Positions 1,546 through 22,848 of a stretch of DNA of 22,848 nucleotides are shown here, piece after piece. Both the position numbers and the translations under genes were made by a program. This stretch comes from a virus: positions 1 through 22,848 of the IMG/VR virus record IMGVR_UViG_3300025685_000031; one strand, written 5' to 3'. The notes under the pieces were generated by a model. That model did not search any database. It was not told the origin of the DNA and was given only the letters and a program-made list of their open reading frames with translations. Positions within the stretch are counted from its first letter, which is position 1. Every line of letters begins with the position of its first letter.

Positions 1546-1781
1546 AAATTAGCAGCAATCAAATTTGGGGAATCATCGGAATCGTAGCCCTTTGGGTTTT
1601 TGGCGAGACCGCAGTAGCCCTGAAGAACGCAGGCATCACGGCACAGTCGCTTGATGCTTTTTTCTCGGACCTTAGTCAGGGTGAGCTTTTTGCCGCTCTC
1701 GGAGCCAGTGCGACTGGCGGAGCTGGGTTTTTGTTTGGCGGCCGACATGAAAAGGCCAAGAAAGTAAAGGAATTGAAATAG
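1542..1781 (+). CDS. Small two-segment membrane protein (holin-like candidate)
   Basis: Unrecognised 79-residue protein. I chose GTG 1542 because it overlaps the polymerase stop as GTGA and has AAAAGG eight bases upstream; ATG 1518 in the same frame is an alternative adding eight residues. The product has one clear hydrophobic helix (about residues 7-26, starting QIWGIIGIVALWVF), a linker with acidic residues, a Gly/Ala-rich second hydrophobic stretch (about 49-67, ending GGAGFLFGG), and a strongly basic tail (RHEKAKKVKELK). Two hydrophobic segments with a basic tail fit a small holin, but it sits between the polymerase and nrdJ, far from the endolysin. It could equally be an inner-membrane protein of unknown role. 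The stop TAG overlaps the nrdJ GTG by one base. Confidence 0.72.
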   Translation: MKISSNQIWGIIGIVALWVFGETAVALKNAGITAQSLDAFFSDLSQGELFAALGASATGGAGFLFGGRHEKAKKVKELK

Positions 1782-3502
1782 TGAGTAAAGGGCCGCAGAC
1801 ACAATTTAGCGATGACCTTCACGCCCAAAAGTATCGAGCACCCGGAGAGACTTTCGTGGAGGCGATGAACCGGGTAGCTGGGGCGTTGAAGGATGACGAA
1901 GATCATTTTCGAGATATCCAAGACGTTCTTAAAGGGATGAGATTCCTTCCGGGGGGCCGTGTTCAGGCGGCCATGGGCGCAATCAAGGATGTTAGTCCAA
2001 TCAACTGCTTCATGTCAGGGGACATCACGGACTCATTCGTGTCCGAAGATGGCAACATCATGCAGCGAGCCACCGAGGCTGCGGCAACGATGCGTCTAGG
2101 TGGGGGTATCGGCACGAACTTCTCGACGCTCCGACCTCGTGGCGATCTCATCACCAAACTCAGCTCTCAATCTTGTGGGCCAATCGGGTTTATGGAGATC
2201 TTCGATGCGATTGGCAAGACGGTTGCATCCAGCGGGCACCGCCGGGGAGCCCAGATGGGAGTACTGCGGGTTGACCATCCCGATATCGAGGAGTTCATCC
2301 ACGCCAAGAATGACAATCATACGCTTACCGGTTTCAACATCTCAGTGCTTGTGACCGACGAGTTCATGGAGGCGGTGAAAGAGGACGGTGACTTCAACCT
2401 AACTTTCGAGGGTCGCGTCTATAAGACTATTAGGGCTCGTAACCTCTGGGACATGATCATGCGTTCTACGTATGACTATGCAGAGCCTGGGGTTATCTTC
2501 ATTGACCGCATTCAAAAAGAGAACAACCTTGCGTACTGCGAGGAAATCACAGGCACGAACCCGTGCGGAGAGATTCCGCTACCGGCCTTTGGTGCGTGTC
2601 TACTAGGCTCTTTTAACCTTGTCAAGTACGTCAACCTCGAAAGTAACCAGTTTGAGACCGAAAAGCTGATCGCGGATATCCCCGGAGTCGTACGTGCTCT
2701 AGATAACGTAATCGACCGTGCCCAAGTGTGGCCTCTTCCCGAACAGGAGTTGGAGATGAAGTCCAAGCGCCGTATTGGGATCGGAGTGACCGGCCTTGCG
2801 AATGCCCTAGAGGCACTGGGATGCCCCTATGGATCCAAGTCCTTCGTCAAGGGCACTCAGATGATTATGCGTACCTTGCGGGACGAGTGCTACCGGGCAT
2901 CTATTAAGCTGGCAGCCGAGAAGGGGTCCTTCCCACTGTTTGATGCAGAACCATTCCTGTCTAGTGACTTCGCCAAACGTCTCCCGGAAGATGTCCGCGA
3001 AGAAATCCGACTGCACGGTATCCGTAATTCACACCTAATAGCCATCGCACCGACGGGGACGATCAGCCTATGCGCCGATAACATCTCTTCAGGATTAGAG
3101 CCCGTCTTTGCGTATCGCTTTGATCGAACGATTCAAAAGTTTGAGGGGCCAACCATCGAGACTGTCGAAGACTATGCGGTTCGGGAGTGGGACGTTGAGG
3201 GTAGGACAGCGGGCGAGCTGACTCCCGAGGAACATTTGAACGCGCTATCCGCTTGCGTGCCGTATGTTGATCAGGCCATTAGTAAGACGATTAACTGCCC
3301 CACTGATATCGCTTGGGAAGACTTCAAGGACGTATACGTACGTGGTTGGCGGGAGGGCGCTAAGGGCGTAACCACCTTCAGGATTGGCGGAATGCGCGGA
3401 GCGCTACTAGAAGAAAAACCGGAACCCGAGCAGGTCGAAGAGACTGGTTCGGCACTTGCCTGCGAACAAGACCCGACAACGGGACGATGGGATTGCAACT
3501 AA
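1781..3502 (+). CDS. nrdJ: Ribonucleotide reductase, class II (adenosylcobalamin-dependent)
   Basis: Converts ribonucleotides to deoxyribonucleotides for phage DNA synthesis, using a coenzyme B12-derived radical. In 573 residues the family landmarks are present: Cys76 (INCFMSG), the active-site motif NPCGE at 260-264 (Asn260, radical Cys262, Glu264), and partner Cys273, eleven residues after Cys262 as in the family. PTGTIS is at 425-430, followed by NISSGLEPVFA. Two C-terminal cysteines (561 and 572) could shuttle reducing equivalents. No NrdB-like small subunit lies nearby, which supports class II over class I. There is no N-terminal ATP-cone, so dATP activity control is probably absent. Starts at GTG with AAAGGA nine bases upstream, directly coupled to the preceding stop. 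Confidence 0.95.
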   Translation: MSKGPQTQFSDDLHAQKYRAPGETFVEAMNRVAGALKDDEDHFRDIQDVLKGMRFLPGGRVQAAMGAIKDVSPINCFMSGDITDSFVSEDGNIMQRATEAAATMRLGGGIGTNFSTLRPRGDLITKLSSQSCGPIGFMEIFDAIGKTVASSGHRRGAQMGVLRVDHPDIEEFIHAKNDNHTLTGFNISVLVTDEFMEAVKEDGDFNLTFEGRVYKTIRARNLWDMIMRSTYDYAEPGVIFIDRIQKENNLAYCEEITGTNPCGEIPLPAFGACLLGSFNLVKYVNLESNQFETEKLIADIPGVVRALDNVIDRAQVWPLPEQELEMKSKRRIGIGVTGLANALEALGCPYGSKSFVKGTQMIMRTLRDECYRASIKLAAEKGSFPLFDAEPFLSSDFAKRLPEDVREEIRLHGIRNSHLIAIAPTGTISLCADNISSGLEPVFAYRFDRTIQKFEGPTIETVEDYAVREWDVEGRTAGELTPEEHLNALSACVPYVDQAISKTINCPTDIAWEDFKDVYVRGWREGAKGVTTFRIGGMRGALLEEKPEPEQVEETGSALACEQDPTTGRWDCN

Positions 3503-3915
3503 TGTTTCTTGCCACTGACGAGGCAGCCGAAAGGCTGCAACAACATGTCGAACAGCTCCGAGAATCTCTCTATGTTTTATCTAAGCCAGACTCAGCATCC
3601 GATATATTTGAAATCTCGAAAGCTTGGGTACAGGGGGAAGGGATGGCTTGGACCTTAATGAAGCGAGAGAGAGCCGAGGAAACAATCGAAGCTCTGTATG
3701 GTTTCATACATGCCCATGACCTTATATTCAAAGAAGGACAAGGGTTCAAGCGACTATGCGACTTGGTCGGCGTAGACGTAGAGAGCACGCGAGCCGCGTT
3801 GCGCGAGGAGATGATTGACCCTCTTTTGAGTGGGTCCCTGTATGACACCAACCTCTTTAAGTACCGTAAGATGGTGAATGTCTTAGTCGAACGGATGAGA
3901 TCCTTTGCCCACTGA
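3502..3915 (+). CDS. Hypothetical protein, mostly helical
   Basis: Unrecognised 137-residue protein. ATG 3502 overlaps the nrdJ stop (TAATG) and has GGGA nine bases upstream; an in-frame ATG at 3487 would overlap more and has a poorer ribosome site. The sequence looks mostly alpha-helical, with an N-terminal charged helix and a central segment reading FKRLCDLVGVDVESTR. That segment resembles a phage pattern (F..lC..lGld...vR) seen in small unannotated replication-region proteins, possibly helix-turn-helix-like. It has no signal peptide or membrane helix. The neighbourhood (nrdJ before, nuclease and helicase after) suggests a DNA-metabolism accessory, but that is only inference. Confidence 0.8.
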   Translation: MFLATDEAAERLQQHVEQLRESLYVLSKPDSASDIFEISKAWVQGEGMAWTLMKRERAEETIEALYGFIHAHDLIFKEGQGFKRLCDLVGVDVESTRAALREEMIDPLLSGSLYDTNLFKYRKMVNVLVERMRSFAH

Positions 3916-4294
3916 AAAGGCCTTGGAGAAGCACGGCGCAAAAGTAGCAAAGCGCCTTGGCATCTTCGTGGTTAAACTCGGTGTGTTAGGGGGCGGAGGG
4001 TGGCCCGATCATACCTTTTTCAAGGCAGGTCGGGTCGCCTTCATCGAGTACAAGATCGAGGAGTCAGCTAGATTTCAGCCGCTACAAAAGTACTACCTAA
4101 ACCTGCTTGACAGGTTAGGGTTCAGAGTAGCAGTATGCTGGACTAAAGATCAGGTCAAAGAGTTCTTAGAAGGGTTCCACGATGAAGTTCAAACCGCACA
4201 AGTATCAGGAGCAAGTGCTCCAGAAGATGATGGCGCAGGATCGACTAGCTCTACTGCTAGATCCAGGGATGGGCAAGACAGCAATTTGCCTTGA
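3905..4294 (+). CDS. VRR-NUC domain nuclease
   Basis: Small restriction-endonuclease-fold nuclease of the VRR-NUC family, probably acting on branched or replication-intermediate DNA. Of 129 residues, about 1-92 form the domain: GWPD at 32-35, the catalytic EYK at 48-50 and a conserved Gln61, followed by the helix and strand of the family (LGFRVAVCW). It starts at TTG 3905 with GAGA just upstream; an in-frame TGA at 3896-3898 excludes an earlier start, and TTG 3923 is the only close alternative. The last ~37 residues are Ser/Gly/Ala/Asp-rich and lie entirely inside the start of the helicase gene in another frame, giving a 113-base overlap. VRR-NUC genes next to SNF2-like helicases are a common phage pairing. 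Confidence 0.9.
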   Translation: MPTEKALEKHGAKVAKRLGIFVVKLGVLGGGGWPDHTFFKAGRVAFIEYKIEESARFQPLQKYYLNLLDRLGFRVAVCWTKDQVKEFLEGFHDEVQTAQVSGASAPEDDGAGSTSSTARSRDGQDSNLP

Positions 4295-5585
4295 GGACTT
4301 TGTACGCCGACGCGAGTTGATGGTTGCAAAGCGCGCGCTGGTAGTTGGTCCACTCCGGGTATGTCATTCTACATGGCCGACAGAAGCCAAGAAGTGGTCT
4401 ACCTTTTCTGACCTTAAAGTTCATGTTGCCCATGGCAAGGGCAAAGTGCTTGAGACTGTTAACAGTGCGGAGGTAGTGGTCATTAACCCAGAAGGCCTCG
4501 AATGGCTGGTACAGAACGATAAACACCTGTACGGATTCGACGTAATATATGTAGACGAATCGACACTGTTCAAAAACAGCCAGTCGAAACGTGCGAAGAT
4601 GCTGTATAAGGTTGTACATAAGATGAAGGGCGGGATCCCATTCCGCTTTATCCTGACGGGTACGCCCGCTCCAAACGGAGTCGAAAATCTGTTTGGTCAA
4701 TTCAAGATCCTCGACCCAGAAATACTGGGGAGCACACTGGGTAAGTTTCGTGGGGACCACTACTTCCATGCCCAGCGAATGTCCTTTGGTGTGATCTGGG
4801 AGCCGACGAAGGCATCCGTTCAGTCTATCACTAAGGCCATCACCCCACACAGCGTTCGGCTCGACGCTACGGACCACCTCGACTTACCCGGCATACAGTA
4901 CATCCGGCGACCTATCCGATTGTCGCAGTCCGTCATGCAGTTGTATCGGGAGCTGGCCTCCGAGCTGACAGTCGAGGTGCAGGGAGGCACCGTAATGGCA
5001 GCCAACGCGGGCGTAGCGACTTCTAAGTGCCGACAGGTGGCTAACGGGGCGGTCTACCTCACGCAGGATGGGATGGCCGCCACGGAAGAGACGCGAAACA
5101 TTGAGTGGCTGCATACGTCTAAAGTTGAAGACCTATGCGATCTTTTCGAGGAGTTAGGAGGCAAGCCGCTGATGGTCGGGTTTGAGTTTAAGCATGATCT
5201 CAGTCAGATTAAGCTGGGGGTAAAGCAGCGTTTCGGGTTCACCCCCCGCTACATCGGAGAGACGACGAACGTAGAGGCTGATACCAAACTTATCGAGCAA
5301 TGGAATAAGAGAGAGCTGCCTATGATGTTGGTCAACCCGGCAGCGGCATCGCACGGCCTGAACCTTCAGGCCGGAGGTCATCATCTCTACTGGTATTCTC
5401 AGATATGGGATCTGGAGGTGTACCAGCAGTTCAACGCCCGCCTTTGGAGGCAGGGGCAGTCGGAAGGAGTGTTCGTACACCACGCAGTCGCCGAAAAGAC
5501 CGTGGATGAGAAGGCCTTTAAGGGCCGTCTCAAGAAAGAAGGAACCCAGCGCAAGCTGTTATACGAATTAAAGGGGGACGGATGA
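4182..5585 (+). CDS. SNF2-like superfamily 2 helicase/ATPase
   Basis: DNA-dependent ATPase of the SF2/SNF2 type, presumably remodelling or unwinding DNA during phage replication or recombination. In 467 residues the motifs run in order: a Q-like N-terminal KYQEQ, Walker A DPGMGKT (27-33), motif II as DEST (125-128, in place of the usual DEAH/DESH), and motif III LTGTP (158-162). The second RecA lobe has HGLNLQAG (motif V, from 391) and the arginine motif ARLWRQGQ (motif VI, 419-426). It starts at ATG 4182, 113 bases before the VRR-NUC stop; the N-terminus matches the natural start of phage homologues. The stop overlaps the next start as ATGA. The likely partner is the preceding nuclease. Confidence 0.94.
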   Translation: MKFKPHKYQEQVLQKMMAQDRLALLLDPGMGKTAICLEDFVRRRELMVAKRALVVGPLRVCHSTWPTEAKKWSTFSDLKVHVAHGKGKVLETVNSAEVVVINPEGLEWLVQNDKHLYGFDVIYVDESTLFKNSQSKRAKMLYKVVHKMKGGIPFRFILTGTPAPNGVENLFGQFKILDPEILGSTLGKFRGDHYFHAQRMSFGVIWEPTKASVQSITKAITPHSVRLDATDHLDLPGIQYIRRPIRLSQSVMQLYRELASELTVEVQGGTVMAANAGVATSKCRQVANGAVYLTQDGMAATEETRNIEWLHTSKVEDLCDLFEELGGKPLMVGFEFKHDLSQIKLGVKQRFGFTPRYIGETTNVEADTKLIEQWNKRELPMMLVNPAAASHGLNLQAGGHHLYWYSQIWDLEVYQQFNARLWRQGQSEGVFVHHAVAEKTVDEKAFKGRLKKEGTQRKLLYELKGDG

Positions 5586-6196
5586 GTGATTCATGCCATA
5601 CTGAAGGTATGATAAGAGAAGCGATAATCCTAACGGGGGCCGCAGGCAGTGGGAAAGACACTGTGGCCAATGCCATATACGATGAATTTGACCCGGTGTT
5701 CTATGAGGGGAAATTCTCTGCGGCCATAAAGGATGCGACGTGCGATCTTTTCGGGTGGGATCGGTATGAAATCGATGACAACCTACAGTACAAAGAAGCC
5801 GTCGCTACTTGGCCGGATGGCACTCCGCAGACCCGCCATAGCCACACGCGTCGTCAGATCATGCAGATCTTTGGCACCGATGTTTTTCGAGACATGTTTG
5901 ACCAGGATTTCTGGGTTCGTAAGCTGGTCAGCGAGATTGAGAGCAGTTCGTCCGAAGACCCCTGGGTGATTTCGGACTGCCGGTTCCTCAACGAGTTCGA
6001 AGCATTGCAGAGCGTGTTTGACAGAACCCTGGTGATCCAGTTGCGTCGGAAGGGGGCTCCGACGCATGGGCACACCCATGCGTCGGAGATGGAGTGGATG
6101 CAGATCCCAGCAGATCTCACCATCGAAGCGGCGAGTGGGGACATCGACTTAATCCAAGATGTAGCTTTGCGGCATGTTCGGGAGTTTCTCGCATGA
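5582..6196 (+). CDS. Deoxynucleoside monophosphate kinase
   Basis: P-loop kinase that phosphorylates dNMPs to dNDPs, extending the dNTP supply begun by NrdJ. The 204-residue protein has the Walker A motif GAAGSGKDT at 19-27 and the family segment SDCRFLNEFEAL in the second half, as in T4 gp1 and T5 dNMP kinases. The region between is rich in Asp and aromatic residues, as expected for the substrate lid. It starts at ATG 5582 within an ATGA overlap with the helicase stop, with AGGGGG just upstream. The in-frame ATG at 5609, directly before IREAIILTG, lacks a well-spaced ribosome site. The stop overlaps the next ATG as ATGA. Confidence 0.9.
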   Translation: MSDSCHTEGMIREAIILTGAAGSGKDTVANAIYDEFDPVFYEGKFSAAIKDATCDLFGWDRYEIDDNLQYKEAVATWPDGTPQTRHSHTRRQIMQIFGTDVFRDMFDQDFWVRKLVSEIESSSSEDPWVISDCRFLNEFEALQSVFDRTLVIQLRRKGAPTHGHTHASEMEWMQIPADLTIEAASGDIDLIQDVALRHVREFLA

Positions 6197-11000: not shown

Positions 11001-11796
11001 ACCGACTGATATGGATCTTAAACTGCGGAACCGTTGGCCTCTCTCCGAGAACTCCGCCTTCCCAGACCAAGTGGCAAACGCCTTTTTGAGAAGATAATAG
11101 GTCATATTTTCGGACAAAGTCAGCAGTGACGCCAGTCCCATGAAGATCGATCAGCTCTGTGTTTACACTCTTCAGGTACGGACTAACCTGTTGAGTATCG
11201 GTGCCAAAGAAAAAAGTCATGTCGCCAGCTATGTAGCCACCTGTTTTCTCACCGCCAAAAAAGCCTGGATCGACTATCCCCGCATATTGGTAGAAATCAG
11301 AAGCGATAGTGCCCCTTTCGAGGCCCCGAGCTGGCGCAGTTTTTCCCGCGAACGTCTCATTGGCCTTCATTATGAAGCCATCGTCCACCTCGACTGCGTT
11401 GAGGCTGTCTACTGGCCCCCAACATAGAGCGAGGTCCAACCCATATGAGTATCGGTACCCCACCGGTTGATCTGCGGTATCTAGGTAGTATGCCTCATAG
11501 TCGCCGTACCAAGTGACGTTCTGTCCATCAACTCTGGCACTACCCCAAACGATAGGGATGTAGCGGCTTTCCAAGTTCGTAGGAAACCCAAACTCACCTA
11601 GTCCGCTGGGTTCTGACTTCTCAATATCGGCTGAGGGAGCAATCAAAGCCATCGTAACGGATAGAACAACAGACAGCACTACCATTACGATCAGGTACGA
11701 TATGCCAAAATCGGCTCGTATATACGAGTCAGAGGTTTCGACAGGCCCTATGAAGTACGCAAAGCCAAAAACAGTTGCAAGTATGAAATTTTTCAT
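8026..11796 (-). CDS. Tail tip / central fibre protein, lambda gpJ-like
   Basis: The 1256-residue protein at the distal end of the tail, expected to form the tip and contact the host receptor. The N-terminus has two hydrophobic stretches (3-17 and a strong one at 31-53), then RYIPIVWGSARVDGQNVTWYGD (78-99), the conserved opening of gpJ-like proteins. The segment NPAHVIYEILTDTNWGLSL (from 289) is the family's central hub signature. The C-terminal half is beta-rich and variable-looking, as expected for receptor-binding regions, and ends in fibronectin-like strands (VTGVNLMSSLDSAATSAG region). ATG 11796 forms an ATGA overlap with the gpL-like gene, so synthesis is probably coupled. Family role is firm; the exact receptor domain is not identifiable here. 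Confidence 0.92.
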   Translation of the reverse strand: MKNFILATVFGFAYFIGPVETSDSYIRADFGISYLIVMVVLSVVLSVTMALIAPSADIEKSEPSGLGEFGFPTNLESRYIPIVWGSARVDGQNVTWYGDYEAYYLDTADQPVGYRYSYGLDLALCWGPVDSLNAVEVDDGFIMKANETFAGKTAPARGLERGTIASDFYQYAGIVDPGFFGGEKTGGYIAGDMTFFFGTDTQQVSPYLKSVNTELIDLHGTGVTADFVRKYDLLSSQKGVCHLVWEGGVLGERPTVPQFKIHISRYPTGLTTAFSRINVDATTGQADANPAHVIYEILTDTNWGLSLDPTLIDRQSFLDVAEQLHTEGNGFSYTIQSPKQAKKVIDSINDQINSSLTQDSEGKFVLKLLRETYVAGESKALLDYKGILKVTEEIRDDTGTACLCKTATAGADARFTSTLMWNSLEVGELVAVSNITENSGRKLVKIVQKATNADGTQPFVFFASTTGEDLAANASFIGLNVTATAERYEQMREVDQSSIIKMKSASRQSWNETFNVVQVKYLNRFKEFAETIATAHDMGNLAIQSGRKTIKTFDMQGIRSPNAAKVVAQRKLRTHAYPITALGMELNRSFSSLRPGDVIKVNYPDFELTDFVMRVLEVGLPSDSKGNVMVRGMRDVFDESPKTVNVAGITGVLDANDPTEPPAIGTANPPPDRTAVATSPARTILSGLPYFLHQLLVDAGLITGTGDSTWHIVGAPTDEVSAIQPFEVPSGFVEYINTSGPKAPAAVGKLVVDSTMIFADDPVSPFVFDSTLFQYGNSFISEPASNSIDLFSSSPYGRYFGGSADPINFDIEGGGSAYDIGLPHYLSLIAPESSESDYGARLGELSIRFKVGPDVARLTQTIGEIKEFGFGLALVRPAWANGDSRFDELIAFEEIRQVPLSMYVGPRGGIEGNPQADLVLNADTITNTFVYGYLFGPGYKAPERTVDFICLDGVYRGVLDTGIQMLNHDSDVFILPVNDLLYDVVAQTGLSSRTYKHITESQGSLLDISQAAAVTVTSPKLNRKDLPLLPKNARKTAGGDPASKFWGEMSFTPSVIGGEPPSSVVGLTFPAYSESTGYNLTISHYDTDIAATNVLNVASDTTTARATWRPHLIFHLLQDDADGATEEQRKQTAFARWKQGWMPTTPPLRYPEAATIYGYTNPDSVTINDHGAAADVTGFRASAEFLSGSATTVTGVNLMSSLDSAATSAGTGLSITSGQKYYIEVWSGMTDTAVTQDSYGLQRHIIEWTATTNRTP

Positions 11797-12656
11797 CGAT
11801 TCGCCGACCTGTTCTTATTGTCAATAGAGAAGGGGTTAAGGGTGGGGATAAAAGGAAAACCGCCATACCTTTGTGAGTTAGAGAACCTAGAAAAACAGGT
11901 TTGCATCGCACGATCACACCCTGCGGACAAAGAAATGGTTTGACCAGCATTGAGGCCATCAACCGGCACCATCAGTTTCACCAAGTAGGTATTCGCAACC
12001 ACCGCTTGTTCAAACTCCAACGCCATGCGCTGACTCCCCTCAACGCCAGTCCGAACCGTGCCGCCATTAAAAAACCCTATGTCGGTAGTCAATTTCGCTA
12101 AGGCTTGGCCACTGTCTTTTAGGGTCACCCTGATCCCATCAGAACTAACCGATAGGACCTCAAAGTTGAAGGTGAAACTCGACTCAGCCACCCGACATCC
12201 GTCTCCATACAAGACATGGTTGCACATCCAAGAAAAAGTCTTAGAAGGGATTTGCGCTTCCATGCGAGACGCGATGCCACCTATACTTACAGTAACGTCG
12301 GTGCCTTTGAACTTGACGCCCGTGACAAACCCTGACAAGAAAGGTTTAACTTCTAGTGTGCTGTCACTGAGGTGCGCTCGAAATATTTCAAGTCGATCTT
12401 GTGCCGGGGCAATGCCCCCTAGGTACCGTTGTACAAAAGGGTTGTTAAAAGGAAAATTCACGTTGAAATTTCCCGAACTTTCTTTCGCATTGATGGTAGG
12501 AGCCGTGCGTGAGATAGGTATAGGCTTGTACACATCGCCATCAAAAGTAAATTCCGTGGCTAACGACGTGTAATAGAAAGAGTCTACACCCGTTATTCTG
12601 TACAGCTCAATAGGAGCGGATCCTTCTGTAGAGCTATCTTGTTCGGAGTATGACAT
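11793..12656 (-). CDS. Tail hub protein, DUF2163/BR0599-like (gpL-like)
   Basis: 287-residue tail tip component. The N-terminal ~130 residues match the DUF2163-type beta fold. The C-terminal part is the BR0599-type domain with CNHVLYGDGC (Cys145, Cys154) and GCDRAMQTC (Cys247, Cys254), followed by RFSNSQRYGGFPFIPTLNPF. The four cysteines have the spacing expected for the iron-sulfur cluster known in lambda gpL-type proteins; that ligation is inferred here. It lies between the distal tail-like protein and the gpJ-like tip, the usual order. Its start sits on an AGAGGATAACCCCC leader, shared with another late gene. Confidence 0.92.
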   Translation of the reverse strand: MSYSEQDSSTEGSAPIELYRITGVDSFYYTSLATEFTFDGDVYKPIPISRTAPTINAKESSGNFNVNFPFNNPFVQRYLGGIAPAQDRLEIFRAHLSDSTLEVKPFLSGFVTGVKFKGTDVTVSIGGIASRMEAQIPSKTFSWMCNHVLYGDGCRVAESSFTFNFEVLSVSSDGIRVTLKDSGQALAKLTTDIGFFNGGTVRTGVEGSQRMALEFEQAVVANTYLVKLMVPVDGLNAGQTISLSAGCDRAMQTCFSRFSNSQRYGGFPFIPTLNPFSIDNKNRSANR

Positions 12657-14289: not shown

Positions 14290-16446
14290 CTACCTCTTGT
14301 ACACGTAGCTGGCCCAGCCAGAGTGTTCATCAATGTTGAGAGACCTTTGCTTACCGCCTGTTACTAATTTCTTGTAAACAGGGCGGTACACATACGTATC
14401 TTCACCCAAAGTCGCCTCTGTAATAATCTGGCCAGCAGTCTCCGTGCCCCTCCAAACTCCCGGGAATTCTCCTAGCATCATGTACGATGCTTTGTGGAAA
14501 CCATATCGAGAATTGCGTTGTAATCGGGTCTCCCCTACGGTGACGTAATCTACCTCCAGAATAGGCTGAACGCTGGGGCTAGATGTGTTGATGATGTCGA
14601 ACCGAACGTGAAAGATTGCTTGGCCCGATCTATTATCCAACCAGTTAGGGTGTGTGGTAGGGTTGTAACTCAGGGTCACCCATTTGCCGTCACGAAACCC
14701 ATCCGGTTCAGGGAGTGTGATCTGCGTTGTTTCGCTGAATCGTGAAGTCCCGCTTGTCCATGCTGGGACTGTCCAGTACATCTTCCCCTCCCAGTTTGCG
14801 GAAGGGGTGGCCTCCCGTCGCAGACGTACTCTGATCTCCACCCGGTCATAGTGGGCGGTTGGAGTGTAGTTCATGGCGATGCCACTGTTGCTGTTGCCTA
14901 TGTTTAAGCCTGAGTCGTTAGCTGTCCCCGTTAAAACTAACAAACCATTCTCTAAGGCCGTACTGGATCCAAAACCGCTAATGTTAGCGTCAGCGAACAT
15001 GTCAGGGGCATAGAATTGAGGATCGGGTGGGGGAGAAATCCCGGCCATCCGAGTTTGCACAACTTCCGGCCGAGGGAGTTGGGTGAGTATGGCGTGCGTC
15101 TTCGCGAACGGACTTATGTAGTAAGACTTAGTTTCAGCGAGATTTAAAATTCCTAGGGGCACCGGTCCTGGCCGCAAAGGGTAGTAGGTGCGCCCCCGTG
15201 CCCCTCTCATTCCGTATGAATGCCCCCCGGTAAAGTCGTTCAAACCAGCTTGAATGGAATACCGGGCACTTGCTAGGGTCCTAGTTGCACCAGTGGCCGG
15301 GCCATATTGGTTGTCGTGAGAGGTCCCGGTGGGTCCGTACCCATTCCGGCCCCCTGCTACTTCTTTGAAAGAATTCGTCCCCGAGTCACTGATTGATGCA
15401 GTCATGATGCAAGGGTTCTTCCAGCATTCCCCAGCATCGCTGTACGAGAAAGGGTACTGGTATGTATCCGATCCATATGCATCGGTGTGAGGGCCAGTTG
15501 TACCTAGGAAAAGCCCCGAAGGGATAGCCGAGCCCTGAAGCACCGCCGCATTGCCCGAAACGCGCCCCATCCACCAATGAGATCTAGGTTTATTATACTC
15601 TTGGTAATTGCCCTTGGTGTTGAGTACCATGTGGAAATACTCATTTCCGCGCGTTGCATCTCCATAGAATTCGTACTCAACTCCGGCATTAAAATCTAAT
15701 CGGCCAGATCTAGGAAGCCAGCCCTCTGCTATTTGAACGGGGGTGAGTTCGTCACCGTTCCACAGGTTGCTAGAAAAAGAACCGATTGGGGTTTGCTCAG
15801 GGCGTTGTAATGCAGTGGGACTAAGAAGGCCCGAAGCATATGCGCCGCCGTAGGTTGATGGTAAAGCGAAAGTAGCATCTTGATCGGTGCTTCCCGTCGT
15901 CCGATCGTAGGAGCCTTTAACGATGGCAGTGAACGTCTGAGCGGTGCTATCTACTGCGGTTACTTCTAGGATGTGCCGAACTGTGGCATTCTCCTTAAAG
16001 ATAATAGCAGAACCGACCGCTACGTTTAGCAAAGCAGAGCCCGCAGCATACGTTACGGTACCGCTGTAAGTGCTCACGCCTGCGACGACACTTAACGTGG
16101 CAGTGACATTACCCAGCAGAGTTCGCATACTTACCGATTCGTCCGAGACATAGTACGCCTGATAATTAGTGACGAACCGCCCTTGCAATGTGTCAAGCAA
16201 TTGGCCGACTATTACGGTTTCCGAAGACAAGTTGTTCATGCTAAGACCATTTATAAAGTCAAAGATGTAGGTAGCTCCGGTATCTTTATGTTGAAACGCG
16301 ACAGTGCCAGAACTGTCCGAAAACGGGCTAGCGCCATATGTATTCCCAAAGGGGTCACTGAAGTTTCCGAGCGTACGGACAGCAAAGCCGCGCATGGCTC
16401 TCCTGAACTCGTCAATTGAAGTTGCGGTGCCTGTGGCGTAAGGCAT
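14290..16446 (-). CDS. Large virion structural protein with carbohydrate-binding-like domain
   Basis: 718-residue protein, not assigned to a named family. ATG 16446 is chosen over the longer reading from 16518 because the SD AAGGAG lies nine bases upstream and the longer form would overlap the preceding gene by ~60 bases. It opens with IDEFRRAMRGFAV, a motif seen in large phage virion proteins. Residues ~475-640 form a beta-sandwich-like segment with YDRVEIRVRLRR, NWEGKMYWTV and a final LEVDYVTVGE. That pattern is typical of lectin or carbohydrate-binding modules in tail proteins, so glycan contact is plausible. The ~200-residue middle region is Gly/Tyr-rich. It lies between another large unknown structural gene and the distal tail-like gene. 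Confidence 0.8.
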   Translation of the reverse strand: MPYATGTATSIDEFRRAMRGFAVRTLGNFSDPFGNTYGASPFSDSSGTVAFQHKDTGATYIFDFINGLSMNNLSSETVIVGQLLDTLQGRFVTNYQAYYVSDESVSMRTLLGNVTATLSVVAGVSTYSGTVTYAAGSALLNVAVGSAIIFKENATVRHILEVTAVDSTAQTFTAIVKGSYDRTTGSTDQDATFALPSTYGGAYASGLLSPTALQRPEQTPIGSFSSNLWNGDELTPVQIAEGWLPRSGRLDFNAGVEYEFYGDATRGNEYFHMVLNTKGNYQEYNKPRSHWWMGRVSGNAAVLQGSAIPSGLFLGTTGPHTDAYGSDTYQYPFSYSDAGECWKNPCIMTASISDSGTNSFKEVAGGRNGYGPTGTSHDNQYGPATGATRTLASARYSIQAGLNDFTGGHSYGMRGARGRTYYPLRPGPVPLGILNLAETKSYYISPFAKTHAILTQLPRPEVVQTRMAGISPPPDPQFYAPDMFADANISGFGSSTALENGLLVLTGTANDSGLNIGNSNSGIAMNYTPTAHYDRVEIRVRLRREATPSANWEGKMYWTVPAWTSGTSRFSETTQITLPEPDGFRDGKWVTLSYNPTTHPNWLDNRSGQAIFHVRFDIINTSSPSVQPILEVDYVTVGETRLQRNSRYGFHKASYMMLGEFPGVWRGTETAGQIITEATLGEDTYVYRPVYKKLVTGGKQRSLNIDEHSGWASYVYKR

Positions 16447-16461
16447 GGGGGTTATCTCCTT
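16447..16461 (-). promoter_or_regulatory. Ribosome binding leader, AAGGAGATAACCCCC-ATG
   Basis: AAGGAG then ATAACCCCC directly before ATG 16446. The preceding gene's TAA stop (16460-16462) lies inside it. This leader decides the start of the 718-residue protein and matches the one at 12657-12670. Confidence 0.7.
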
Positions 16462-18463
16462 ACAGCGGGTTGAGGTCGAAAAATAGGTTACCTGAGTTAT
16501 CATAAGCCAACCCGTCAACTACGTTAAAGTAGGGTGGCGTGAAATTGCTATGGCCAATGACCATCCGATATGTGCGGTTTTTAATCACGAACTCCGATCC
16601 GGCGGGGTACACTGTGGTTCCTGTGTTGGCATAGAAGTCAATCTCTGGCCCCCAATACAATCCGGGCAACTCGCCTATATTCTCATACACAGGGGTAGAC
16701 CCGGAACCCGTGTTGGTGCTTGGTAGCAAAAGCGAGGCGGGTTGGTTAAACTCTGACCCGGTCTGTGCTGTGCCATCTTGATAGGTCCAAGTATGATGAT
16801 CGGGAGCTACTTGTGTCAGAGTTATGGGTTCAATGTTTGGCGTACCGCCTGGGTTGGACATATGAATCCCAAGTGCCATGGACGGGTTTGAATAGCCCAC
16901 CACAGGATCCCACGAGACAGCCTCCCTGCCTTGGTCAAAAGCTGTAGTAAGCTGCCTTGCGCGGTCGTCGGGCGTCCCGATGTTAAGGGTTCCGATGTTA
17001 TCTACCCCTTGATAATTGTCAGAATGAGCCAGGCCCGCAGCATTTGTATCGATTACGTCCAGCAGGGGAACTGCTGGAGAATTTATTGAGGGCATGAACA
17101 GCTTCGTATACTTCGGTTGGTTATACGTTCCTGAGGCGGACGCTTCCATTCGGAACTGGCGAGATAGGATAAAAGGCATACGCGCAGTGAACTGCCCATT
17201 AGCTCTCATACCTGCTACGCGACCACTCAGTGCCCAAACGTCATCAACGGGTTCCGTTAAGGTGCCCCGAGACGCCCTCCAGAAAGGCCGTACAGAATCA
17301 TTTCCTACCCTTGATGCGCTCCCACCGACCTTGCCTAAGAAAGCCATAGGGTGTGGGTAGTCCTCCATGGTCTCATAGGGCTTGAACATGCCAAAGAAAA
17401 CACAATCATCTCGTTCAGCGTAGGTGGCATTAACGGTTCCAGAGGGCATATCTGCTACTTGAGCTAAAATCCGCACGTAGCCGTTGCCCCGGATCATTGT
17501 GAATTTATTAGGATTAAAATTCGCAGTCCCCCCGCCTGAAGTAGAAGATCGACCACAGTCCATGGACGCAAAGATCGAGTTGCCGGTGGGTCCGTATGTG
17601 TCTGCTCTCCAAAACGCCCCCGAACATACAGTCTGGTTGTTACTAATGGTAGCTGTTGGCAGCACTAACAACTCAGTGATCCAAGTGATAAACGCAATGC
17701 CTTGCATGTCATAGTCGCTTAGCGGGGCAGTAGGGTCAACAGTAGCACCCCGGCCTCCGTCATAGAACAGAACACTGTGGGATGTGTTGTTCTGGATGCC
17801 ATCACTTCTATTGCTACGAGTTACCTCAGCCCAATTGTACGCCGGGGTATACTCCGGCTGTCGGATTGTAACGTCTATGAAATCGTTGTACGGGCCTGTT
17901 CCGGGGACGCCGGAAAAGCCAACAGGGTCCCTAATGGCGACGGAGAAAACAAAGTTCCCTTGGTCGTCATAGAAGTCAGTGCAAGCGTCATAAGGGGCGT
18001 CCAGCCTTCCGGTGTTGGCCTCATCTCGCAGATTGATGTTATCACCTTCTAGGTTATCCCCCTGTATAAAAAAGCTAGATGCTGTTAGGTAGATCCGGTA
18101 AGTGCCTACGGCCAGAGACCTATCGCCCGCGCTTCTATTCTGCTGAAGGCGATCGGAGAACGTTGAATAAGCCGATGCAGTACTGACGGATGGACGAGTA
18201 GCCGCATCCGCACGGGTAACCGAAGTCTCAACTACCTCAAGCTTCGCTGTAGCTGATGGGTTGCCACCTAACGTGACCGAGATGGAATTGTAATCAACAA
18301 TAGGTGCGCCTAGCATAAACTGCATTAGGTTATTGGCGAAAGCTTGCGTCCCCGATACAGCCGGCCCAAAAAAGGACGAAAAAGGCCTGCTGACCGCTAG
18401 GGAGTTTGCGATCGGGCTGGCAAAGTATCTGCTTGGGACGGTTACTGTAAATTTATCTTCCAT
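16460..18463 (-). CDS. Large virion structural protein, unknown
   Basis: 667-residue protein directly after the tape measure gene; no family recognised. It is beta-rich with many Gly/Ser/Asn/Thr stretches, few charges and no membrane helix, which fits a tail or tail-tip structural component. It opens FTVTVPSRYFASPIANSLAVSRP and closes TYRMVIGHSNFTPPYFNVVDG then FFDLNPL. There are three cysteines in the middle third. ATG 18463 has GGAG six bases upstream. Position between tape measure and distal tail proteins suggests it is added at the distal end, possibly in place of a canonical gpM-like protein, but this is inference. Confidence 0.8.
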   Translation of the reverse strand: MEDKFTVTVPSRYFASPIANSLAVSRPFSSFFGPAVSGTQAFANNLMQFMLGAPIVDYNSISVTLGGNPSATAKLEVVETSVTRADAATRPSVSTASAYSTFSDRLQQNRSAGDRSLAVGTYRIYLTASSFFIQGDNLEGDNINLRDEANTGRLDAPYDACTDFYDDQGNFVFSVAIRDPVGFSGVPGTGPYNDFIDVTIRQPEYTPAYNWAEVTRSNRSDGIQNNTSHSVLFYDGGRGATVDPTAPLSDYDMQGIAFITWITELLVLPTATISNNQTVCSGAFWRADTYGPTGNSIFASMDCGRSSTSGGGTANFNPNKFTMIRGNGYVRILAQVADMPSGTVNATYAERDDCVFFGMFKPYETMEDYPHPMAFLGKVGGSASRVGNDSVRPFWRASRGTLTEPVDDVWALSGRVAGMRANGQFTARMPFILSRQFRMEASASGTYNQPKYTKLFMPSINSPAVPLLDVIDTNAAGLAHSDNYQGVDNIGTLNIGTPDDRARQLTTAFDQGREAVSWDPVVGYSNPSMALGIHMSNPGGTPNIEPITLTQVAPDHHTWTYQDGTAQTGSEFNQPASLLLPSTNTGSGSTPVYENIGELPGLYWGPEIDFYANTGTTVYPAGSEFVIKNRTYRMVIGHSNFTPPYFNVVDGLAYDNSGNLFFDLNPL

Positions 18464-18481: not shown

Positions 18482-21346
18482 CTATGCCATGCCTCTCATA
18501 ATCTCTGGATTACGTTGCATTACATTCAAGATAATGTTTTCGCCCTCTTCGGAACCCATGGCGTTCAGGGTGTTCTCGGCGGAATCCACGTTGACGATGG
18601 TAACCTGCGGCTTTTGGCCGCCCATCATGTTTGCCGTTTCCTTGTTACTCTTGATTGAGCCGCTCTTCGGTGGGACAAAAAGCTCTGGGCCACGCTCTCC
18701 GACCACATAAGGCTGACCGCCTGAAACAGGGCCGCCTGCCGCTCTACTGCCAAGGCCCATTAATGCGAGCGCCCCTTCGCCGCCAACCGCTTTGATTACC
18801 ATGATCAGAGCCATCATGACCGTCATTTGTACGATCATCTGCGTGATCATGGTGAGAAATGACATGCCCAGCTCTTTGAAGTTCGCCTTGCCGGTCGTCG
18901 CCATCTCAGTGATTGCATTACTCAAGCCTCCAATTCCCGCTGCCGTGATACTCGCGATGTTGGCCCCGAGATCCAGGGCAGGGCCTGCAACGCTCGCAAA
19001 GCCCTGCTCCATCGACGCGAACATACCCTCACGCAGCTGCGCGCCGGTCAGCTCCCCTTCGAGGAGACTGTTGTTCATGGTCTCCATGTCCCGGGTGTTC
19101 TGCTTTATGGCCTCTTGCTGCTCAATCCGACGCTTAAAGGCTGCCTCCATCTCGTCAAGCTGCTCCGCAGAGACGCCCCCCATGTTGCCGTCGCCTTGGC
19201 GAGCCGCTTTAAACGTCGCCAGTCCCTGTGTCTTTTCCTCTCCTAGTTGCAGGATCTCGCCCTGCGTTCCGCCGAGTGAGGTCAGGCCCTGAAAAATCTG
19301 CTGTCCCTCAAGGGCCGCGGCTCGCTTTTTCATTAGCTCGATATCCTTCTGGGATATTTCCTTGTTGTCTTTCGCCTGTTCCTCGATCTTTTGTAGGGAA
19401 AGTCTATAACGTTCGTTAGCTTGCGTAACCGCGTCCAGCGAGCCGAGTGACTGTCCGAGGATTTGTAGTCTTTCCTTTTCTAGGTCTTGAGTATCACGAA
19501 CGGAGTCTGCATTATCCTCCTGCGCCTTTTTTAACCGCTTTGTAAATGCAGTTAGGTCGGCCATCTTTACGCCCGTGGCCCCTAGCAGAATTTCGAGACT
19601 TTTGTAAGCCTGAGAGCTGGTGTCAAGGTCGCCAGTAACCTCGTTGAATTCCTTCGACACCGGAATCAAGCGGATTAGATCGTTTCCTACGCCCTGAAAC
19701 AGTCTCCGCATATCCGCGAGCTGTTCTTGGGTCAATCCCCCTGTCTGGATTACTACGTCACTATATGTAGACCCGATCCGTTTTAGGTCATCCATCAGGG
19801 AATCGACAGGCCAGTTAGCATCATACTCTGCCTTGAAGTCGGTGATGGCGACTTTGGTCAGCTCAGCCATACTGTTCGACACATCTTTCAGGGCTTGTCG
19901 TTTAGCGGCCAGCTCATCATACGCAGCAACAAGTTTATAGAGACCATCCGCCAGAGAGTCGAACGCTAGTTGTTGTTCTAGGGGCAGCAACCCAGTCGTC
20001 TTCATAGCTGATTTTGACACTGCCTCCAGAGCAGACTCAAAGGCAGATTTCTGTCTCATATAGGCTGCGTCGATAGCGTCATCCATACTGGCGTAATCGC
20101 CCTGCTTAACCTGAATGTCTCCTAATTGAACCGATTGATTAGCTTTGACTTTAAGGCCAGCAAACTCTTTTAGAGCTTCCGTATTCTGGCCGACCATGTC
20201 GTAATGCTCTTTCCAGAACTCTATGGCGTCTTGATTGTTATTGGCAATATCAGCCAGGGCCGTCGAAGCGTTCTCCAGCTCACTGCGCATGGGCTTCAGG
20301 GCTTTCTTCTCCGTTTCGGAGGTTGCCTTGAAGTAAGTATATGTGGCACCCGCGGCCAAGACCGCTCCCGCAGCAAGTTTGGCATAAGGATTCGGGATCC
20401 TAGCGAGCAAGCCAGCTAAGGTTCCCGCCTTAGTAACTTCCGTAGTAAGACGGGCCGTACTTGTAATCAGCTTTGACCCGGCGTACGCAACACCCAAAGC
20501 AATGATCATGTCCTTGAGCTTTTCGAGCTGGCCTGTAAACTCCTGCGCCAACGGGCCGCCGGTCGCAAACGATCGGTTGAGTTCGGTGACGAAATCGACG
20601 ACTCCCTTGACTGCATCACCTAATGTTTCCCCCGCTCCACTCAACTTGGACAGGGTGTCTATAAGGATTGTACCTTCCCGCTTGAGACTGATAAACTGAT
20701 CCGCGATCGGAAACTTAAATTTGGCAAACTTCGCGTCCAGATCCTCGATTGAATTGCCAAGCGCGTCCTTCATGACCGTCGCGGTGATCTTGCCTTCCTT
20801 ACCGAGAGCACGAAGCTCACCGACCGCAACGCCCATTGAGTCCGCGAGGATCCGAGCGATCATCGGAGTCTGCTCCAAGATCGAGTTGAGTTCCTGACCC
20901 GAAAGTCGGTTGGCGGCGAGTGCCTGACCGAACTGCCGCAGAGCGCCGGTTGCTTCCTGTGCGGTCGCGCCAGAGAGCTTGGTCGCCTTGGCGAGGTTGC
21001 TGACCATGACAGTGACTTGCTCATTAGACAAGCCAACTTGGTCTGCGGACATGGAGACGCGTTGCATAACGTCTGCAACGCCGCTCATCTCCATGTTCAT
21101 GGTTCGCGCCACCGAAACAACCGTTGCCATTCGGTTGGCGGCTTGGTTCTGGTCTCGTGCGAACACCCGGCTCTTATTGCCAAGGTTCGTCATCTCATCG
21201 GAAGCGCGAATGACCTGCCGGGCCATACCAACGGCAGCAAGGCCGACCGAGGCCAGCCCGACTACCAGACCCTTCATCTGTCGGGAGACTTTACGTGCTC
21301 CCATCTGCTTGACTTTGATGAGTACGGTATGCGTATTCATGGCCAT
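18482..21346 (-). CDS. Tail tape measure protein
   Basis: 954-residue protein that sets tail length and threads through the tail tube. The N-terminal tape-measure domain spans about 40-230 (ASDEMTNLGNKSRVFA, then SGQELNSILEQTPMIARILADSMG). A hydrophobic stretch lies at ~309-340. The middle is long and helical, with coiled-coil-like charged repeats. A strongly hydrophobic segment at ~828-866 is followed by VGERGPELFVPP (~882-893), the typical C-terminal tape-measure motif. By the usual ~1.5 angstrom per residue it predicts a tail of roughly 140 nm. ATG 21346 overlaps the upstream stop (TAATG), with GGGG eight bases upstream. In-frame ATG 21340 is a weaker option. Confidence 0.95.
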   Translation of the reverse strand: MAMNTHTVLIKVKQMGARKVSRQMKGLVVGLASVGLAAVGMARQVIRASDEMTNLGNKSRVFARDQNQAANRMATVVSVARTMNMEMSGVADVMQRVSMSADQVGLSNEQVTVMVSNLAKATKLSGATAQEATGALRQFGQALAANRLSGQELNSILEQTPMIARILADSMGVAVGELRALGKEGKITATVMKDALGNSIEDLDAKFAKFKFPIADQFISLKREGTILIDTLSKLSGAGETLGDAVKGVVDFVTELNRSFATGGPLAQEFTGQLEKLKDMIIALGVAYAGSKLITSTARLTTEVTKAGTLAGLLARIPNPYAKLAAGAVLAAGATYTYFKATSETEKKALKPMRSELENASTALADIANNNQDAIEFWKEHYDMVGQNTEALKEFAGLKVKANQSVQLGDIQVKQGDYASMDDAIDAAYMRQKSAFESALEAVSKSAMKTTGLLPLEQQLAFDSLADGLYKLVAAYDELAAKRQALKDVSNSMAELTKVAITDFKAEYDANWPVDSLMDDLKRIGSTYSDVVIQTGGLTQEQLADMRRLFQGVGNDLIRLIPVSKEFNEVTGDLDTSSQAYKSLEILLGATGVKMADLTAFTKRLKKAQEDNADSVRDTQDLEKERLQILGQSLGSLDAVTQANERYRLSLQKIEEQAKDNKEISQKDIELMKKRAAALEGQQIFQGLTSLGGTQGEILQLGEEKTQGLATFKAARQGDGNMGGVSAEQLDEMEAAFKRRIEQQEAIKQNTRDMETMNNSLLEGELTGAQLREGMFASMEQGFASVAGPALDLGANIASITAAGIGGLSNAITEMATTGKANFKELGMSFLTMITQMIVQMTVMMALIMVIKAVGGEGALALMGLGSRAAGGPVSGGQPYVVGERGPELFVPPKSGSIKSNKETANMMGGQKPQVTIVNVDSAENTLNAMGSEEGENIILNVMQRNPEIMRGMA

Positions 21347-21795
21347 TACTTACGCCCCTTCCCGCGCTTGGCGGTGAGCTTTACGTCGTGCATCTTAAAA
21401 TCAAGATAAGACAACGCCCGCTGTATGCCCGTCCTAACAAAATTGCTAGGTGCCTGAGTGCTAGATCCATTTTCGAGAAGGCCGATATAATGAACGCCAT
21501 TGGCAATCGAGGCTTCCTCCTCATCCCCGCGGAGCTTACGGATTTCCAGCTCCGGGTCAGGCTCATCGTGTAAGAAGGCTTCGCCCGGATCGGTGAAGTC
21601 TCCTTTGAGGTCGGGTGATATGTTCCATCCGTTGACGGCTCTGCGGGTTTTCCTAGGAGTGCCTAGGGGCGGAACATCTTGGACCTCGTAGATGATGTAG
21701 GCGGCTGCCTCTTTAACCATCCCTAGCGCTTTCTGCTCGATCTCCTCAAACTCGTCTTCGAGATCCTTAACTACTAGCGGGATTGGTTTGGCCAT
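21346..21795 (-). CDS. Tail completion/neck protein, HK97 gp10 / gpZ-like
   Basis: 149-residue protein of the HK97 gp10-like family, which helps join tail to head or complete the tail. Signals: VPPLGTPRKTRRAVNGW (41-57), the family's 'P..tG..R..W' region, and VHYIGLLENGSSTQAPSNFVR (101-121), matching the family's 'Y....E.GtS...P...vr' pattern. The C-terminal tail is basic (KRGKGRK). ATG 21795 has GAGGAG five bases upstream. It lies between the tail assembly chaperones and the tape measure; homologues usually sit upstream of the major tail gene, so the placement is unusual. Confidence 0.85.
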   Translation of the reverse strand: MAKPIPLVVKDLEDEFEEIEQKALGMVKEAAAYIIYEVQDVPPLGTPRKTRRAVNGWNISPDLKGDFTDPGEAFLHDEPDPELEIRKLRGDEEEASIANGVHYIGLLENGSSTQAPSNFVRTGIQRALSYLDFKMHDVKLTAKRGKGRK

Positions 21796-21796
21796 G

Positions 21797-22162
21797 TCAG
21801 CTCCTCTTGCGTTCTGCTTTTTTACGTTCTCGTTCTATCTCTTCAGAGCATATTTGAATGTACTTTGAATCTAATGAGGCCAGGATGTACATAAAATCTT
21901 CGTACATGTCTTCATACCTAGTAAGGCCGAGAACTACCGCGTAGCGATGTGCCGCCGTCCAGGGGATGGATGCCGGTCCAGCGGAAGTGAAGTGTCTGTC
22001 CCGAGAAAGGTCCCAAAAATAACGAATGAATAGTTCGTCCTCGACATCTAAGTCTGGAGGTAGCATGGCGGGCGGAGGGGGCTTGCCCTGCTCCGCCGCA
22101 GCCTCGATGATCGGGGCAGCCTTTTCACCATACATCAAAGACCATTCAAGGAACCCGACTAT
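21797..22162 (-). CDS. C-terminal (T) half of tail assembly chaperone GpGT, made by -1 frameshift
   Basis: Second half of the tail assembly chaperone. Ribosomes translating G slip one base back at 22162-22168 and continue here, giving about 121 extra residues and a fusion of ~258. The T part starts IVGFLEWSLMYGEKAAP and contains LFIRYFWDLSRDRHF, PIPW-like SIPWTAAHRYAVV and ILASLDSKYI, typical of T domains, then a basic tail. A separate start at TTG 22138 is possible, but there is no ribosome site before it. T domains recruit the tape measure protein to the major tail protein during assembly. Confidence 0.88.
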   Translation of the reverse strand: MVGFLEWSLMYGEKAAPIIEAAAEQGKPPPPAMLPPDLDVEDELFIRYFWDLSRDRHFTSAGPASIPWTAAHRYAVVLGLTRYEDMYEDFMYILASLDSKYIQICSEEIERERKKAERKRS

Positions 22163-22572
22163 TTTCCCGTTCGCTCCTCCCGGTCTGCCGCGATAAAGTT
22201 TGCAATGTCAGATGCTTCGTCTTGGATCATCTGTCGTAGCGTAGGCAGTTCCATTAAGAGACTAATCGCAGTCTCCGTCGAATACTTCATCTCTTTACCC
22301 TCGCGGTCGGTGACGCCACTCCAGCCAAGGATGACCGTGTCGGCCAGGGCTTGACACAGAATGCGTTCAGCCTGCTCATCCTTCATCGTGCCCTTCTGCA
22401 TCGCGTACTTATAGGGCTTCATGAGGGCGTTCAGCTTCGTGCCGAACTTCTTGTTTTCGCCTCCGGCACGGGCAAGTTCGAAGGAGATCTTCGCATCGCC
22501 GTCCTGAAGCTCAAGGGTAAAGCTCTCCGATTCGTCGAGCTTGTCTTCATCGAAAATTTCATATAGGTTCAT
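22159..22572 (-). CDS. Tail assembly chaperone, G-like
   Basis: 137-residue chaperone that, in the lambda model, coats the tape measure protein. It starts MNLYEIFDEDKLDESESFTLEL, with an N-terminal acidic strand-rich part, a central basic helix (KKFGTKLNALMKPYKYAMQKG), and a C-terminal helical part ending in ADREERTGK. The order major tail, G, T, then tape measure (here with one inserted gene) is the standard siphovirus layout. It ends at TAG immediately after a canonical slippery heptamer. ATG 22572 has AAAGGA upstream with an AACCCCC spacer. Confidence 0.9.
   Translation of the reverse strand: MNLYEIFDEDKLDESESFTLELQDGDAKISFELARAGGENKKFGTKLNALMKPYKYAMQKGTMKDEQAERILCQALADTVILGWSGVTDREGKEMKYSTETAISLLMELPTLRQMIQDEASDIANFIAADREERTGK
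22162..22168 (-). promoter_or_regulatory. Programmed -1 frameshift slippery site GGGAAAA
   Basis: The - strand reads ACG-GGA-AAA-TAG in the G frame, so the heptamer G-GGA-AAA has the X-XXY-YYZ phase and stands directly before the stop. After slippage the frame runs without a stop into T. Lambda uses the close relative GGGAAAG at the same point. Confidence 0.92.
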
Positions 22573-22661: not shown

Positions 22662-22848
22662 TTATGCCGCGAAACGAGTAATTTTCAAGGTGTAGCCGTC
22701 AGCCGTGGCTGATGGGCCTGATTTTCGAATCGCCTGATAGCCGAGGTTAAGCATAACATCCTCGTTCTTGCCAGAGACTTCAGGTACGCCTTCAGAAAAC
22801 TTGATAGCAGGCATCTCAAAGATCAAAGCGGATCCGTCGCTAGACGCA
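22662..22848 (-). CDS. Major tail (tube) protein, C-terminal part only
   Basis: Reading the - strand from the right edge gives 61 codons ending in TAA at 22662-22664; the gene begins outside the window. The visible peptide contains FEMPAIKFSEGVPEVSGKNE, LNLGYQAIRKS and ends YTLKITRFAA, the typical C-terminus of phage tail tube subunits. Its place just before the hairpin and the G/T chaperones supports this. As the tube subunit it is needed in many copies, which agrees with the hairpin following it. Confidence 0.85.
   Translation of the reverse strand, partial: ASSDGSALIFEMPAIKFSEGVPEVSGKNEDVMLNLGYQAIRKSGPSATADGYTLKITRFAA

Follow-up and report, generated by a model that had tools for sequence, protein, structure and literature searches.

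A tail assembly chaperone locus of an uncultured phage with a probable programmed -1 ribosomal frameshift

The window analysed here is an entire IMG/VR record (IMGVR_UViG_3300025685_000031; 22,848 bases). On its minus strand lies a locus that, judged from sequence comparison, is very probably (roughly 95%) a phage tail assembly chaperone gene from which programmed -1 ribosomal frameshifting yields two proteins. Most ribosomes would halt at the TAG at 22161–22159 and produce the 137-aa G protein, and a minority would slip one base back on G_GGA_AAA and read on in the -1 frame to give a 258-aa G-T fusion (...ERTGK-IVGFLEW...). If the lambda model applies, plentiful G and scarce GT molecules would bind the tape measure protein via the G part, the T part would recruit the tail tube subunit, and G and GT would both leave the finished tail. 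We infer slippage, its rate and, by analogy, lambda-like roles for G and GT. This reading is the best supported because the proteins match chaperone families, the heptamer and the -1 frame are conserved among relatives, no T start is conserved, and the G and T models share their best viral fold hit.

Results

Anatomy of the G/T junction

G (22159..22572, minus strand) is the zero-frame tail assembly chaperone of 137 aa; its 414 nt contain no internal stop and it has a ribosome site of its own, AAAGGAAA, ahead of its ATG. Its 3' codons read CGG GAG GAG CGA ACG GGA AAA TAG, so that, as the initial annotation had claimed and a recheck of the positions bore out, the slippery heptamer G_GGA_AAA (22168–22162, minus strand) is in phase and ends immediately before the G stop. 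The same annotation had the -1 frame running open straight into a T domain, and this too is what we found: 121 codons follow from the slip site (IVGFLEW...) to a TGA at 21799–21797 (T domain, 21797..22162, minus strand). Going upstream, the -1 frame is first closed by a stop at 22210–22208, and G thus overlaps the open -1 frame over 22162..22207 (minus strand), where a shift would produce the G-T fusion; the overlap usable for a shift is 15 codons. On contig L001, which has the identical junction, the other alternative frame meets a stop no more than 15 nt from that of G.

To gauge how often such a motif arises by chance, we counted in-phase XXXYYYZ heptamers with YYY = AAA or TTT. Twelve other open reading frames of the window, hand-picked as likely genes, had one at 15 of 6468 codons, one of these being GGGAAAA, and the bodies of the 35 G genes described below had one at 5 of 4070 codons, with AAAAAAC, GGGAAAC and GGGAAAA absent among them. 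A heptamer would fall exactly at the last sense codons with odds of about 0.002, and somewhere within the 15-codon overlap with odds of about 0.035. Taken alone, the odds for the window heptamer are suggestive; it is the presence of an in-phase heptamer in 34 of 35 loci that settles the frameshift-site observation.

Family matches and neighbouring genes

Searched against PHROGs, G matched PHROG 313 (E = 2.2e-25) and PHROG 8233 (E = 1.1e-18), with nothing in Pfam at E ≤ 1. The T domain matched Pfam PF23812, Phage_TAC_18 (E = 4e-10; 40.1 bits, cut-off 27), PHROG 3817 (E = 1.5e-14) and PHROG 8233 (E = 2.3e-12). Positions 5–139 of the 271-position PHROG 8233 profile correspond to G and positions 143–259 to T, and all four matched families (PHROG 313, PHROG 8233, PHROG 3817 and PF23812) are named as tail chaperones or tail chaperonin. 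T also hit Pfam SPT23_MGA2_DBD (E = 0.0024) at 18.3 bits, below the cut-off of 27, which we judged a chance match of the charged tail. Counting against the proposed reading, Pfam at E ≤ 1 linked neither G nor T of the window to the family of lambda G (PF06894) or to that of lambda T (PF06223), in searches where HMMER filters limit weak matches; the ten G members of set A2 likewise lacked a Pfam match to the lambda G/T families at E ≤ 1, and the lambda proteins, run as a control, do match PF06894 and PF06223.

The locus is placed between the slot of the tail tube gene and the tape measure gene, with a Neck1-like gene intervening, as in relatives. Upstream is the 3' end of a tail gene truncated at the edge of the window (22662..22847, minus strand), which matches PHROG 290, minor tail protein (E = 2e-7); in relatives the slot upstream of G holds the major tail or tail tube gene. 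Downstream of T are a tail completion or Neck1-like gene (21346..21795, minus strand; PHROG 169, E = 2.1e-12), found at the same position in relatives, and the gene for a tape measure protein of 954 aa (18482..21346, minus strand; Pfam TMP_3, E = 5e-42, and Tape_meas_lam_C, E = 1.4e-9). The annotated order in PaMx25, FP1 and PaMx42 is tail tube, G, T, Neck1 and tape measure.

Elsewhere in the window, two minus-strand genes downstream of the tape measure gene encode proteins of 667 aa (16460–18463), with no Pfam or PHROG match at E ≤ 1, and 742 aa (14290–16518), with no PHROG match at E ≤ 0.01. A further minus-strand gene (11793–12656) encodes a protein with Phage_phiJL001_Gp84_N (baseplate hub) and BR0599 domains, a tail-tip type that also occurs in gene transfer agents. 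Replication genes occupy the opposite strand at 1–6196 (plus strand) and encode a DNA polymerase, a ribonucleotide reductase large subunit, an endonuclease, a helicase and a dNMP kinase.

Conservation of the slippery heptamer

Relatives were gathered by tblastn of G, which matched 285 of 50,697 phage records at E ≤ 0.01, every one below 60% identity, and by a pattern search with four G proteins, which gave 16 IMG/VR loci. A T search of the phage collection by itself returned only two records, so that T evolves apart faster than G. From these results we assembled 35 loci, comprising 25 public phages and 10 IMG/VR contigs, among them L001, which shares the junction of the window. The public records were picked for spread, 24 from the 285 G matches and one, Pfeifenkraut (also H99), from the T search, and all loci other than Pfeifenkraut were thus recruited on G similarity alone. 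The 35 loci are not independent, with L022/L023, L029/L031, L014/L036 and L016/L051 forming close pairs. Left out were L030 and L032, near copies of L029 and L031 with heptamer and place identical, L002–L005, which repeat the L001 junction, L006–L009 and L017–L021, which are contigs already used, and L010, which is the window.

An in-phase canonical heptamer lay within the G/-1 overlap at 34 of these 35 loci, and none had two. Run on lambda as a control, the script recovered GGGAAAG 15 nt before the lambda G stop. The heptamer was AAAAAAC at 16 loci, GGGAAAC at 13 and GGGAAAA at 5; it adjoined the G stop in 25 of the 34 and lay 3 to 51 nt ahead of it in the remainder. The single locus without a canonical heptamer, L028 (1891–1902), reads GCA AAA AGC TGA, and this AAAAAGC before the stop counts against the frameshift reading. 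Its -1 frame still codes for a T-like protein and its heptamer site is one base from A_AAA_AAC; a different way of slipping or an error in the sequence may lie behind this.

The second slippery codon was AAC at 29 of the 34 loci, AAA at 5 and AAG at none, in which the set differs from lambda. One could suppose that the wobble base of this codon is host-tuned, and that the window lineage moved to AAA, altering the G:GT ratio with the machinery kept the same. We regard this as doubtful, and the E. coli phage and the Klebsiella phage in the set, both of which also have AAC, count against it.

Conservation across the set bears on two further explanations of the junction. In the first, RNA polymerase would stutter on the A run, leaving some messages in the new frame, and the six-A run of the AAAAAAC relatives (16 of 34) would suit such transcriptional slippage. 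The run is, however, four bases long in the window and three in the 13 GGGAAAC relatives, and A runs of three or four are generally too short for transcriptional slippage; we consider this explanation extremely improbable. In the second, a sequencing or assembly indel would have split one ordinary GT gene. We found no supporting point for it, and such a split would look identical; however, the junction is exactly repeated in five other IMG/VR contigs (L001–L005, from samples that may be related), and G and T lie in different frames at all 35 loci, with differing heptamers in 34. Since L001–L005 carry the identical junction, an assembly error at the window junction is unlikely, and the chance that a sequencing or assembly indel accounts for it is minimal.

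Start sites for T

Production of T as a separate protein, by coupled re-initiation 20–23 nt past the G stop, would do without a frameshift. The nearest candidate starts, TTG 22138 and ATG 22135 (22133..22138, minus strand), share the frame of T and lie 23 and 26 nt beyond the first base of the stop. Their ribosome sites are weak, however, with anti-SD energies of -3.7 kcal/mol for the TTG and -2.7 kcal/mol for the ATG, and the G starts of the 22 loci scored (of 35) range from -5.4 to -9.9 kcal/mol. The initial annotation had T lacking its own ribosome site, and we judged both codons to be unused.

Across the 35 loci the T start codon is unconserved. Seven have no start codon at all in the first 30 codons of T, and the ATG codon of the window is replaced by AAG in L022 and ACC in L024. 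A start within 30 codons with a site of -7 kcal/mol or better, which would favour separate initiation, was present at six of the 35 loci; five of these sites sit inside the domain, at codons 17–30, and the sixth is a TTG at codon 9 of PaP007. Relaxing the threshold to the weakest G level (-5.4 kcal/mol) brings in nyashin as a seventh, and these 7 of 35 loci, with a T start whose ribosome site equals or betters that of the weakest G start, count against programmed frameshifting.

The proteins themselves align from the slip site onward. At the slip site, the first residue of all 35 -1 products is L or I, and the first 14 alignment columns are gap-free, the T start of L028 having been placed by hand from the base ahead of its G stop. 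The nine codons ahead of the ATG of the window include four identical, three synonymous and two nonsynonymous ones between the window and L022, and two, six and one, respectively, between the window and L024; at the same position, L022 and L024 differ by four synonymous and three nonsynonymous codons and share two. The first helix of the T model (mean pLDDT 93.0) spans residues 2–24 and would be cut by a start at residue 10. Separate initiation would also leave the in-phase heptamers of 34 of the 35 loci unexplained, and we consider it very improbable.

Candidate stimulators of frameshifting

For programmed frameshifting, sequences around the heptamer could act as stimulators. Upstream of the heptamer the window has an SD-like stretch, GGGAGGAG (22181–22174, minus strand), with a pairing energy of -10.3 kcal/mol that was equalled by 3% of 300 synonymous versions. 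The corresponding values for PaMx25, FP1 and MMDA13 were 4% each, and RcHartney, RcTitan, Halfdan and nyashin were at the opposite extreme (97–100%). With a mean z of -0.02 across 34 loci, an SD-like stimulator was ruled out as a feature of the family, and the stretch in the window may or may not matter for frameshifting.

Downstream of the heptamer, RNA structure was folded in four loci (the window, L022, L024 and L025), and no conserved stimulator was found among them. Three stretches of the window gave z-scores of -0.36, 0.42 and -0.22, L022 gave -0.04 and L025 gave -0.76; L024 (1909–2000) has a very stable predicted stem-loop directly downstream of its heptamer (-52.9 kcal/mol; z = -6.04). 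No conserved SD-like element or RNA stimulator emerged from these comparisons, which counts against the proposed reading.

Predicted folds

The structure models had mean pLDDT values of 78.6 for G and 93.0 for T. When the two were searched separately against predicted viral structures, the best viral hit of both was the same protein, a 262-aa putative tail assembly chaperone of Acinetobacter phage Loki (G, E = 2.2e-9, TMq 0.79; T, E = 2.3e-5, TMq 0.80), and a 268-aa chaperone of Colossus was also matched by both; the search output carries no indication of which part of the Loki or Colossus protein each half covers. Among solved structures, profile searches gave nothing credible (best E = 0.76 for G and 0.53 for T), structure alignment yielded no chain that reached Z ≥ 5, either for G (998 chains) or for T (150 chains), and a Foldseek search of the PDB with G produced no match at E ≤ 0.001. 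The best Z for G was 4.3, to a proteasome chain, and an HK97-type chaperone was not noticed among the matches listed.

Discussion

Family matches, the conserved heptamer and the conserved -1 frame together support what the initial annotation had proposed, a G/T tail chaperone pair probably made by -1 frameshifting. Its prediction that automated annotation would split T or mis-start it was seen to be true of the relatives: 19 of the 25 public records list T as a separate CDS, three (RcHartney, AH03 and RcRudolph) annotate a joined G-T gene, and three (PW916, YuA and HD01) leave T unannotated. In all 22 records that have a T or joined CDS, its end coincides with the end of the -1 frame. The window locus is an ordinary case, from an uncultured phage, of a frameshift device familiar from long-tailed phages, and the finding leaves knowledge of tail assembly unchanged. 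Its value is that the chaperone gene of an uncultured phage can be annotated properly as G and GT, and that a new comparison set shows AAAAAAC, GGGAAAC and GGGAAAA swapping at one site.

In lambda, a -1 shift yields two products, G and GT, at a ratio of 30:1; their G parts attach to the tape measure protein and T to the major tail subunit, and both products are absent from the virion (PMC5009743). The window resembles lambda in that a -1 slip site of the XXXYYYZ type sits close to the 3' end of G, T lies in the -1 frame and the tape measure gene follows downstream. It differs in that the lambda heptamer, GGGAAAG, lies 15 nt before the stop, whereas G_GGA_AAA adjoins it, and in that T and H are direct neighbours in lambda, whereas a Neck1-like gene separates T from the tape measure gene in the window. 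The strongest E. coli slip sites named in the same source are those ending in AAG, not GGGAAAA (PMC5009743), a point against the proposed reading. For two HK97-like chaperone genes, frameshifting has been measured at 6% and 7% (PMC3711429), and Rhodobacter phage RcZahn, which is outside the 35 loci, is described as having chaperone genes without a clear frameshift signal (PMC8601537), which speaks against a universal frameshift.

GGGAAAA itself is given as a slippery sequence for Microbacterium phage Bush (PMC11749239) and, by citation, for Mycobacteriophage TM4 (PMC4626039). These actinobacterial phages share the seven letters with the window.

The closest parallels in layout come from other phages. 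In Loki, a fusion of gp12 and gp13 has been predicted at an AAAAAAC directly beside the gp12 stop, with the same motif in IME_AB3, and an HK97 gp10-like gene lies between the Loki chaperones and the tape measure gene (PMC5313236). Loki and IME_AB3 thus resemble the window in a heptamer that adjoins the G stop, a predicted fusion, a gene before the tape measure gene and the shared fold hit, and they differ in having AAAAAAC rather than GGGAAAA; G of IME_AB3 is 27.0% identical to G of the window over residues 1–126. In the Caulobacter phages of the phiCbK group and in Colossus, a chaperone ahead of the tape measure gene has been described with AAAAAAC, or GGGAAAC in the case of Colossus (PMC3556154). 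CcrC3, a relative, and the 268-aa Colossus protein match the window proteins, whereas the CcrC3 genome is far larger (311,757 bases) and the heptamers of the group are not GGGAAAA. The layout seen in the window has already been published as a prediction, both for the Acinetobacter phages Loki and IME_AB3 (PMC5313236) and for the phiCbK group (PMC3556154).
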